A stretch of 33,743 nucleotides of DNA from Synergistaceae bacterium. GTDB lineage: Bacteria; Synergistota; Synergistia; Synergistales; Aminobacteriaceae. The stretch covers positions 1 through 33,743 of the forward strand of contig JAFTCP010000053.1 in assembly GCA_017454625.1 (NCBI GenBank), given 5' to 3'. Shown in pieces: positions 16,409 through 19,948 of this stretch. Position 1 is the first letter of the stretch; every line of letters begins with the position of its first letter. Under the pieces are notes generated by a model. It was not told the origin of the DNA. It did no database searches and saw only the letters and a program-made list of their open reading frames with translations. The position numbers and the translations under genes were made by a program.

Positions 16409-16908
16409 CGACATCAACAAGCCTTAATGCTCACGAAAAAGTCAACAAGTCCAATCCGAGAATAGAATTTCGCGGGAAACTCGACAGCTTGAACGCGAGA
16501 ATAATTTTGTTTCAGGCCAATTCACAGGACGAAGAATATATTAGCGATTTGGAAGAATTTCGCGAAGTCGTGAGGAAGTTGCAGAGATGTGAGGCATGTG
16601 ATGAAGTTTTTGCAGAGAGATTAACTTTGTGGGGGCTTGACGAGGACGAAATTCATTCGCGTTCACATAATCCGGACAGGGGGCATATTCTCCCGCATTA
16701 TGACATGAAACGTGAGGCAGCCGAGATAAATTTTTTGAGAACGTTAACGCGTGAAGCTGAGATTTTAGCGTGTAAAGCCTTTGATGACAATGACACTCTC
16801 AGAATCATTCACGTCTTAAATAGATTAAGCAGTGCATTATACGTTCTCATATATAAATATTTGCCGGAAGATTTTAACAGGGTAATGAAATTCGGAAGGC
16901 TCTCCTGA
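16405..16908 (+). CDS. EutT-like cobalamin adenosyltransferase domain protein
   Basis: A 167-aa protein. From about residue 15 it follows the catalytic half of Eut[18 protein letters not shown], then [13 protein letters not shown] (78-90), [19 protein letters not shown] (108-126) and [13 protein letters not shown] (138-150). E. coli EutT has corresponding KSDPRLGFRAVLDS, LSDEDLHRLSHQP, LNLLRTKVRETE and LNRLSSTVYVMM. EutT proteins convert cob(I)alamin to adenosylcobalamin with ATP. The N-terminal metal-binding CCxxC region of enteric EutT is missing here, and CEAC at 62-65 is the only cysteine pair. It is translationally coupled to argF. AdoCbl is needed by aminomutases of ornithine and lysine fermentation, which would explain the pairing (inference). 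A different adenosyltransferase function cannot be excluded. Confidence 0.75.
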
Positions 16909-16926
16909 TGAAACGGGGGAGCTTGA
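16899..16926 (+). terminator. Weak terminator after the EutT-like gene
   Basis: GCTCTCC/GGGGAGC (16899-16905 with 16916-16922) overlaps the stop codon and is followed by TTGATTTT. It sits between converging genes. Confidence 0.4.
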
Positions 16927-16928
16927 TT

Positions 16929-18371
16929 TTACTTCAAGATGAATTTTTCCCCTGAAATTAACGCCCTCTTATAATCCCGAAGACTTGTATGCTGTAAAGT
17001 CATTCCGCTTGCTTCAGCGAAATTCTTTATCGTTGATACGGTTTCTTCATAGCCTTGGCCAGTCGCCGGATCAAAAGTAAATCCTCTTAAAAATGTCTGG
17101 AACTTTTCACGCTGTCTTTGCTCACAAGATGATAAATATTCGTTCATGTTCCTTCTGTAATCTTCCATGAGCTTGACAGATTGTTTCAATAGTTCTGCGG
17201 CTCTGTTATGCTGTTCGGCGTTCAATTTCGCGTTGTTGATAATCTCACGTGCCGACATAACTACCTGGCTTGCCACCATATAAACAACAACAGGAAGACA
17301 GGGATTTACGGATTTCAGCGCTATATCAAATCCCTTCATGGCGAAAATTGCTGTCGTTGATTTTATCGTCGCGTCCGTCAATTCGTCCTGAAGCTGTGAT
17401 GCGTTTATCTCGCCTTTGACGTAAGAATACACAGCCGCGCCCCCGTCAATTAATCCTCCAGCTAAAGCTGTTGATGCCGTAGCGTCCGAGATTACGGGAA
17501 TATTATTAGCACTTCCGGCAATTCGTATCCCCGCGCTTAATGCTCCGACGCTTCCGCCCCTGACTCCACTTTTAGTCGCGTCAATGCCAATATCTTTTAT
17601 TGCCTCGTCTAATTCCTTCTCATCGTTGAAAGCCGCGCATATATTACGAACTCCCGAGACAATACCGCCGACTGCCGCACCGTAAGCAGCTCCGTATCCT
17701 GCTGTCGTGCTTAATTCTCGTCCGTATTGTCTGTATCTGATTTTCCTGGTGAATTTTGCGACGGCTTCTTGTGAGATTTTCCCGTCATCGCCGCAGAGTG
17801 AATATATTTCTTGTGATGTCGTCCCGCCGGAGCTAATGCCTGTTCTTGGGTCGGTCAAGCCGTCGTAAAGATTTCTCACAGCGTCGTCATAAACAGCCCG
17901 TGAGATTTCGCCGTTGGTTAACATTCTTTCGAGTTCATAACGAATTAACGGGACTTTGTCGGACGGAGCAATCCTCTGCATTCCTGAATATTTCGGATTT
18001 GTGAAGTTGACAGCTGACTTATGAGGGGAATTGTTAAATTTCGCCTGGCCTCTGCCCGTTATTCTTCCGTCCTGAGAAAATCTGAAGTCATCAGGAGCGT
18101 GGGGTTCGTCAATGTCAGTAAGAGGCGTTCTGTCGAAAGTTATTCCCGTTTCGTTAGCGAGATTAGTTTGCAACTTCGCGGCTTCGATATACTCAAAGAG
18201 ATTGCCCTTCGCCTGTTCAAAGTCGACATTCTTTAAGCGTCCGGCCTTGTCGAGCAATAATCCCGTGCTTCTGATTGCCTCGTCTGTTCCTGTCTGGACG
18301 TTGTGAGCTTTGAAACTCGCTAAAAAATCTCCGAGCCTCTCGAAAATTTCGTGCTTAGTTCTCTTTGTCAT
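16929..18371 (-). CDS. Unknown protein: possible nuclease-like N-terminal part plus glycine-zipper and coiled-coil regions
   Basis: A 480-aa protein with no family I can name. Residues 50-130 read as a helix with acidic residues (FEYIEAAKLQTN), then HAPDDFRF (D94, D95) and GRGQAKF (Q109, K111). This spacing resembles the E...D...(E/Q)xK core of PD-(D/E)XK nucleases. KYSGMQRIAPSDKV follows. Residues about 222-315 are rich in Gly and Ala with short GxxxG/GxxxA steps (GYGAAYGAAVGG, RGGSVGALSAG, ALAGGLIDGGAA), like glycine zippers. A hydrophobic stretch lies near 358-373. A coiled coil follows at about 378-428, and then a helical tail. There is no signal peptide. G6 at 18379-18384 (minus) serves as ribosome-binding site 7 nt before ATG. 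It is the last gene of a minus-strand cassette whose upstream gene has a similar Gly/Ala core. Confidence 0.7.
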   Translation of the reverse strand: MTKRTKHEIFERLGDFLASFKAHNVQTGTDEAIRSTGLLLDKAGRLKNVDFEQAKGNLFEYIEAAKLQTNLANETGITFDRTPLTDIDEPHAPDDFRFSQDGRITGRGQAKFNNSPHKSAVNFTNPKYSGMQRIAPSDKVPLIRYELERMLTNGEISRAVYDDAVRNLYDGLTDPRTGISSGGTTSQEIYSLCGDDGKISQEAVAKFTRKIRYRQYGRELSTTAGYGAAYGAAVGGIVSGVRNICAAFNDEKELDEAIKDIGIDATKSGVRGGSVGALSAGIRIAGSANNIPVISDATASTALAGGLIDGGAAVYSYVKGEINASQLQDELTDATIKSTTAIFAMKGFDIALKSVNPCLPVVVYMVASQVVMSAREIINNAKLNAEQHNRAAELLKQSVKLMEDYRRNMNEYLSSCEQRQREKFQTFLRGFTFDPATGQGYEETVSTIKNFAEASGMTLQHTSLRDYKRALISGEKFILK

Positions 18372-18440
18372 TATTAATCCCCCCGTTTATCCCATAACAA
18401 AGCACCCGAACGCAACAGAATTAATCTCCTCAAGAGATAT

Positions 18441-18734
18441 TTAGCGCATGAAAAAGAATTCATATAAACGCCAACTCAACGGCATTTTGACTTTTTCTTT
18501 TTTCGCTTCGTTGCTGGCTGTGTTTGATGCTCCTCTTTTTGCTCCAGTCAATGCGAAAAATTTTTCCATCGTCGAATTGCTAATCTCATTCCCCGAAACG
18601 TAAGCATTATTAAACTCGTTCGTAATCTCCCTTGACGCTTCAAGAACATTCGCGGCTTTCGGCTCAATCTCAATTTCCTTCTTGGAGATGCTTTTTTCCC
18701 TCAGCAACGGTGTTTTCAGAATATTGAAGAATAT
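18441..18734 (-). pseudogene. In-frame continuation of the glycine-zipper gene after an amber codon
   Basis: Directly after the TAG at 18735-18737 the same frame stays open for 97 codons (IFFNILKTPLLREKSISKKE and on, ending in FFFMR) before TAA. A TTG at 18705-18707 could start an 88-aa product, but no ribosome-binding site is evident. The segment is charged and helical like the C-terminal part of the upstream protein. After the TAA the same frame gives 17 more sense codons. The simplest reading is one ancestral gene broken by stop codons. A separate small gene or stop readthrough are alternatives. Confidence 0.5.
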
Positions 18735-19607
18735 CTACGTCATCAGCCACGTGATATATAAAGTTTTGTCCTCCTGCTCCGTTAAGTCATTCGCTGAAGC
18801 GTTCGGTATCCTCTTGAGCCTGTCAACAATTTTTTCCATTTCACGAAGAAGCTCGTCATAAATCATCCTGAAACTTCCCAAGAAATTAATATAATCATCC
18901 GCGATAGTCTCAACATGATAATAGAAATCCCGGACCGTGTTCATCTTCTCAGCCGTGAGTTTCGCCTCTTGATAAATTTTCTTCGCTTCGGCTAAACGTT
19001 CCTGAGCCTTTGAGTGCATGATTGAGTCCGCGATTAACAGTACAGGAGCAAGCGCAATCCCGCCAAGTACGAGAGTTCCTCCGGCAACTCCCGCACCTCC
19101 TGCCGCTAATGAGCCTCCGCCGAACCACGCAAGTGTAGCACTTTTCGCCGCCGCTCCTGACAATGCCGCAATCGCCGTTCCTGTTGAAGCCGTCCCAAGC
19201 GTCGCAACTGCACCATAAGCAGCAACTCCGGCCAATGCTCCCGCGCTCAACGAAGCTGCACCACCTTGAATAATTTCTGTCGCGTTCATTGAAACCTTCT
19301 GCATCTCCCTAACGTCGAAATCAATTTTAACAGGAGCTTTCATTAATCCCTGCCCCGTGATCTTCACGTCAATTTGAGTGTCTGCAAAAAACTTGTGAAG
19401 CTCAACGAATTTTCCGATGCATTCAGATGAAATTTTCAGCTTAACTTCTCCAAGATTTTCAAGACTTCGTGTTGCGCGCTCGTGGGCACGTTCCATTTTT
19501 CGTTTAGCGTTATCATATTTGCTTTGAGCATTCTCAAGCGTCTGTTTAGCCTCTTTGTTCGTCTTGTAAGTGTCAATAATTGGAATATGCAATCTCATAG
19601 CCTCCAT
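18735..19607 (-). CDS. Glycine-zipper membrane protein flanked by coiled coils, probably truncated
   Basis: A 290-aa protein of unknown function. Residues 15-55 are a charged coiled coil (KEAKQTLENAQSKYDNAKRK and on). Residues 60-110 form a mixed domain. Residues 115-195 are an almost uninterrupted Gly/Ala/Ser-rich hydrophobic region (GGAASLSAGALAGVAAYGAV, then WFGGGSLAAGGAGVAGGTLV), enough for two or three membrane-inserting hairpins. Residues 198-265 are again coiled coil. There is no signal peptide. The layout (coil, zipper hairpins, coil) is that of helical membrane-inserting or pore-forming proteins, which is inference only. CGGGAG lies about 12 nt before ATG. It is likely co-transcribed with the 480-aa protein gene. 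A G9 tract lies 100 bp upstream. Confidence 0.65.
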   Translation of the reverse strand: MEAMRLHIPIIDTYKTNKEAKQTLENAQSKYDNAKRKMERAHERATRSLENLGEVKLKISSECIGKFVELHKFFADTQIDVKITGQGLMKAPVKIDFDVREMQKVSMNATEIIQGGAASLSAGALAGVAAYGAVATLGTASTGTAIAALSGAAAKSATLAWFGGGSLAAGGAGVAGGTLVLGGIALAPVLLIADSIMHSKAQERLAEAKKIYQEAKLTAEKMNTVRDFYYHVETIADDYINFLGSFRMIYDELLREMEKIVDRLKRIPNASANDLTEQEDKTLYITWLMT

Positions 19608-19706
19608 CTTTATTTACACTCCCGATGACTAAAACTAAGCGCATAAATCCTTTCGTCTCAATCTTTATATTACCGGGAATAAGTAATTTGCATAATGCCA
19701 TTATTT

Positions 19707-19715
19707 GGGGGGGGG
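19707..19715. repeat. G9 homopolymer between the divergent cassette and metY
   Basis: Nine G are followed by TATGTC, almost the same context as the G10 tract at 9939 (TATGATC). The 19608-19948 gap also holds the metY promoter and a 40-codon frame. I see nothing else in it. Confidence 0.85.
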
Positions 19716-19716
19716 T

Positions 19717-19839
19717 ATGTCAATCAGTGATAATACTTTCTCGGAAGACATTAATATTTTACCAGAAAATTTTTACGGCGTGATACTTGACTTTGAAAAT
19801 TTAGCGTGTAAAATCTTTCGCAATTTATTCATACTTTGA
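19717..19839 (+). CDS. Candidate 40-aa ORF adjoining the G9 tract
   Basis: ATG at 19717 opens a 40-codon frame ([19 protein letters not shown] and on) ending in TGA at 19837-19839. It has ordinary amino-acid composition and no known family. An ATG at 19695 upstream of the G tract would fuse in frame to it if the tract had eight or eleven G. With nine G that reading stops after 11 residues. It overlaps the metY promoter candidate, so it may be chance or a gene remnant. Confidence 0.25.
19787..19814 (+). promoter_or_regulatory. Promoter of metY
   Basis: TTGACT (19787-19792), a 16-bp spacer and TAAAAT (19809-19814), a good sigma-70-type pair, lie 135 bp before the metY start. Confidence 0.6.
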
Positions 19840-19948
19840 AGGTGTGCTAATGAGCTTAACAAAATTTTTAGCGAGAATATTTTTGCGCACTCAGGACAAC
19901 AACGATAAAATTATTTCGCAAGAGACGAAACGAAAGGATATAAGCATA

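Follow-up and report, generated by a model that had tools for sequence, protein, structure and literature searches.

What kind of module is encoded by the two neighboring minus-strand genes that lie between a cobalamin adenosyltransferase gene and a metY-type gene in this Synergistaceae bacterium, and is the copy found there still whole? In the window (the entire stretch of 33,743 nucleotides that we analyzed), both open reading frames and both flanking genes are as a preliminary description, made from the letters of the DNA, had given them, the first flanking gene being recognized by Pfam as Cob_adeno_trans (1e-17) and as EutT-like (3e-25). We refer to the two genes as A and B, and their features are as follows.

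18735..19607, minus strand: gene A, 290 aa up to its first stop, upstream of gene B; glycine-zipper coil protein of the PDC-M09A family
18735..18737, minus strand: in-frame TAG truncating A, seen in the read-through translation; relatives run on past the same point
18441..18734, minus strand: probable severed C-terminus of A, in the same frame as A; 97 open codons that include an 88-aa ORF (18441-18707)
16929..18371, minus strand: gene B, 480 aa, an intact ORF; nuclease-like N-terminal domain, glycine-rich region and C-terminal coil and tail
18039..18194, minus strand: putative active-site stretch of B from E60 to K111 (E60, D94, G102, Q109, K111), defined by alignment-invariant columns
16932..17063, minus strand: C-terminal tail of B, about residues 437-480, corresponding in alignment to the EFDxLMxSDxxxxL tail common to B proteins

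The composition of both proteins also bears out what had been claimed for them. In A, charged coils flank a core rich in Gly, Ala and Ser (about residues 100-190), and residues 112-140 and 166-199 form hydrophobic stretches; in B, Gly/Ala-rich stretches lie at about residues 220-300, followed by a hydrophobic one at about 348-378. Neither protein begins with a hydrophobic N-terminus, in keeping with the reported lack of a signal peptide.

Comparison with the PADLOC models gave A an identity. It matched PDC-M09A at 7.3e-29 and 7.6e-28, which identifies gene A, at the level of sequence, as a PDC-M09A homologue; an hmmsearch of the window with a profile of A relatives recovered A at 2.4e-63 and nothing apart from it. 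The earlier suggestion that the cassette is an undescribed system is thus withdrawn, given this match and the fact that BnzB-type relatives are already known. PDC systems are candidates proposed through guilt-by-embedding, most of them still awaiting validation (PMC12988326), and a literature search for PDC-M09 by name found neither a paper nor a published mechanism. Relatives of A are widespread: at least 542 turned up, in many phyla, when one genome per species was scanned, and the best 80 of these loci include Synergistota, Bacillota, Bacteroidota, Spirochaetota, Actinomycetota and Pseudomonadota. The closest A among the relatives compared comes from a Ruminobacter locus (L085; 37% identity, 2.5e-36). 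Homologues of A were found in a single plasmid record, from Azospirillum, and in none of the viral contigs and phage records searched. Pfam and NCBIfam searches with A and B returned nothing useful, a PHROGs search gave matches at chance level only, and profile searches of the PDB found no relative. An ATG17-like match on A fell below the cut-off and resembles a coiled-coil artefact; we set it aside.

A preliminary concern was that the two genes might be neighbors nowhere else, or might belong to a known housekeeping family. Neither A nor B matches a housekeeping family, and when we clustered the neighbors of 78 loci with a called A gene, all from other genomes, a B-type protein adjoined A in 71, far beyond chance. 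A TerB-like protein occurs in 63 of these loci and a small CxxCxxCC-type protein in 16, while no other neighbor family exceeds 7; the rarer neighbors, named by eye, include WYL-type or helix-turn-helix regulator-like sequences and tyrosine recombinases. The commonest gene order is B, TerB-like gene, A and, in some cases, the CxxCxxCC gene, and 21 of 30 middle proteins in such B-TerB-like-A loci have a TerB Pfam match. Many copies in the window's genus consist of B followed directly by A, with no TerB gene. The order seen in the window, A before B, also occurs in the Ruminobacter locus, and since that locus has it, we rejected the idea that this order is a sign of decay. The end of A is often followed or overlapped by the gene for a small CxxCGxCC protein, as at L060:6996-7262 and loci like it.

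The B protein of the window has no PADLOC or Pfam match of its own, and a profile built from B proteins matched it at 7.9e-11. Its same-genus relatives that adjoin an A gene match PDC-M09B. A set of 64 B proteins, drawn from other loci, gave 35 matches to BnzB (best 1e-116), 21 to PDC-M09B (up to 4e-21) and 2 to PDC-M40B. What these proteins have in common is a C-terminal coil and tail, with the consensus QFxNQxEFDxLMxSDxxLxL, and what differs is the N-terminus, which may be an M48 peptidase (22 of 64), an HNH-like domain with a DH..N..N motif (HNH/PDC-M40B), the QxK domain found in the window, an LRAT domain (in a genome of the same family) or, in a short protein, no effector at all. Judged from these alignments, B is a case of domain swapping at the N-terminus over a constant C-terminal tail. 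Taken with the pairing data, this establishes B as A's conserved neighbor bearing an interchangeable predicted effector, here of the E...D...QxK type.

Several individual B loci stand apart. The LRAT form, a B-type partner at L052:9690-10535 that adjoins a PDC-M09A-type gene, carries its LRAT domain (Pfam, 1.2e-6) at the N-terminus, an effector class absent from the other loci. At L073:2742-5192 and similar loci, B is a protein of about 800 aa in which an M48 HExxH peptidase domain is combined with a BnzB-like body and the common tail. G007 has a partial copy of B that is 80% identical across residues 341-480; it is located elsewhere than the window's slot, and at L051:13250-13850 it adjoins two short genes that by eye resemble a toxin-antitoxin pair.

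The preliminary description had noted a possible nuclease-like motif in the larger protein, and the alignment strengthens this reading. E60, D94, G102, Q109 and K111 are invariant across window B and 21 QxK-type proteins (22 sequences with about 21% identity overall), and E60, D94, Q109 and K111 of window B fit the PD-(D/E)xK signature E...D...(E/Q)xK. The AlphaFold model of window B is unusable (pLDDT 45); the QxK domain of the relative at L068 was modeled with a pLDDT of 91 and has the order alpha-beta-beta-beta-alpha-beta, with E79 placed on the first core helix, D114 immediately ahead of the second strand, and Q131 and K133 of the QxK motif on the third. Such a placement of residues and order of elements is the arrangement of PD-(D/E)xK nucleases. 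Motif and predicted topology together support the QxK domain of B as a nuclease, with no fold match to confirm it: a search of the L068 domain against the PDB gave no significant match (best E 0.32, with an archaeal Holliday-junction resolvase at E 5.5), and a search of a viral library gave none either. Among 391 genomes of the class to which the L068 genome belongs, the only QxK domain found was L068's own.

Two listed systems and one more distant one invite comparison. The cassette resembles PDC-M09 in its side-by-side pair, in the match of its A to PDC-M09A and in the matches to PDC-M09B among B relatives that carry the same type of effector; it differs in that window B has diverged too far for the B model, A precedes B and is interrupted, and other loci add TerB-like and CxxCxxCC genes that match no PADLOC model. 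TerB is a listed domain of Shango and Bunzi (PMC10952713), and the likeness to Bunzi lies in the BnzB-type proteins (35 of the 64), which have the same C-terminal tail as B and adjoin a PDC-M09A-type A and a TerB-like protein. However, window B is not BnzB-type, having no BnzB match, window A has no BnzA match, and in the genomes tested the BnzA model (544 positions) marks neither A nor the TerB-like gene. Window A also shows weak similarity to Eleos LeoBC (5.8e-4), but the dynamin-like GTPase of Eleos (LeoABC) is not beside window A and is absent among the recurrent neighbors of the 78 loci.

Having placed the cassette, we turn to the condition of this copy. The 290-aa reading of A stands as far as it goes, and what the preliminary description missed is that the frame continues past a single TAG, stays open for 97 codons and takes in the 88-aa ORF. 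Beyond the stop, FNILKTPLLREK lines up with VKTILDTPILTEDG of relatives, and the segment just past the TAG lines up with KTILDTPILTEDG, the conserved C-terminus of A relatives. Joining the post-stop segment to A, with X at the stop, lifted its score against the profile by 5.9 bits, from 209.9 to 215.8, a gain that none of 200 shuffles reached; the segment alone did not match the profile significantly. The region of the 88-aa ORF is probably the severed C-terminus of A, judging from frame and alignment. At its other end, alignment to intact relatives indicates that A is without the N-terminal hydrophobic segment of about 18 residues present in them. No TerB or CxxCxxCC partner gene lies beside the cassette, and genome-wide searches found no match to the CxxCxxCC family and no TerB match above the cut-off. 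Because A carries the TAG and lacks the N-terminal hydrophobic segment, and because the TerB and CxxCxxCC partners are not adjacent, the window copy is probably impaired, and the break in A argues against its activity; the copy may be impaired in this way unless the TAG is a sequencing or assembly error. Same-genus copies of A or B with in-frame stops or frame breaks were also seen at L048 (G033), L056 (G015), L058 (G017) and L040 (G030:C2), a pattern that suggests either recurrent inactivation or assembly error.

The junction between the adenosyltransferase gene and metY (window positions 16908-19844) is itself variable in the genus. It is empty in G005, G031 and G033, where the two genes are adjacent with short gaps; it holds a different cluster of three genes in G028, G004 and G029, four small paralogues that appear to carry signal peptides in G032, and a lipoprotein-like gene in G034 and G035. 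As the junction is empty or otherwise occupied in the same-genus genomes examined, we regard it as a slot that takes cargo. A search for insertion-site repeats gave only a 25-nt inverted match of 76% near both ends, likely due to chance.

How far the damage to A should color the reading of the whole cassette is the closest call. A former PDC-M09-type system now in decay, with B an orphan or acting alone, comes just short of an even chance in our estimation: the TAG, the missing N-terminal segment and a genome lacking a CxxCxxCC match or a TerB match above the cut-off all fit such a remnant, as do the stops and frame breaks in the four same-genus genomes. Yet the frame of B is fully open with its invariant residues kept, that of A stays open for 97 codons beyond the stop, and TerB-less A-B pairs are common in the genus, while the locus with the closest A shares the A-before-B order.

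Two further readings take the module out of antiphage defense. Swappable toxin-like N-termini on a constant C-terminus recall the layouts of polymorphic toxins, and a two-gene core of patchy distribution would suit a toxin-antitoxin or inter-bacterial conflict module in which B is the toxin and A its neutralizer. We think this unlikely, as B is constant at its C-terminus and varies at its N-terminus whereas in classical polymorphic toxins it is the other way round, no secretion signal was seen, the supposed neutralizer is more conserved than the toxin, and PADLOC lists A as a defense candidate. It is quite improbable, too, that the module serves membrane stress or metal handling, with TerB, CxxCxxCC and M48 acting in membrane protein quality control and the nuclease-like domain misread; all three do occur in non-defense proteins (the CxxCxxCC type as a small protein), but HNH and QxK domains at the equivalent position, a patchy presence and the PADLOC classification are unlike a housekeeping role.

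The cassette is most likely a divergent, possibly inactivated candidate defense module of the PDC-M09 type, combining a membrane component with a nuclease. The earlier proposal of a membrane partner and a nuclease-like effector in a defense-type module fits this, backed by the PADLOC family, the positionally conserved partner and the swapped effector; the defense function itself rests on the PADLOC classification, as PDC-M09 is only a candidate system. We envisage that glycine-rich helices and coiled coils would hold A and B together at the cytoplasmic membrane or within it, the membrane part being suggested by composition. A, together with the TerB-like protein in most other loci, would restrain B or sense a membrane disturbance linked to infection; upon a trigger, the nuclease domain of B would be released or activated and cut nucleic acid, and phage growth would be stopped or the cell killed. 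As a whole, this explanation (a divergent PDC-M09 member, A and B at the membrane, a triggered B nuclease and a probably impaired copy) seems to us reasonably probable.

An unannotated pair is now placed in a widespread candidate immune family. More interesting than the cassette itself is the pattern of one scaffold with many effectors that links PDC-M09 and BnzB. We consider it slightly better than an even bet that PDC-M09 and the BnzB part of Bunzi form one large modular immune family, with a constant A and TerB-like protein and swapped B effectors, in which the constant C-terminal tail of B would serve as a docking tail and the effectors would be two kinds of nuclease, an M48 protease, an LRAT-like enzyme or none. 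This would tie together PDC-M09 and BnzB-type Bunzi, which are listed as separate systems, and the comparison suggests a design rule in which effectors are exchanged while the membrane scaffold and docking tail stay constant; in intact relatives, the mechanism could then be probed by swapping domains and by mutating the active site.
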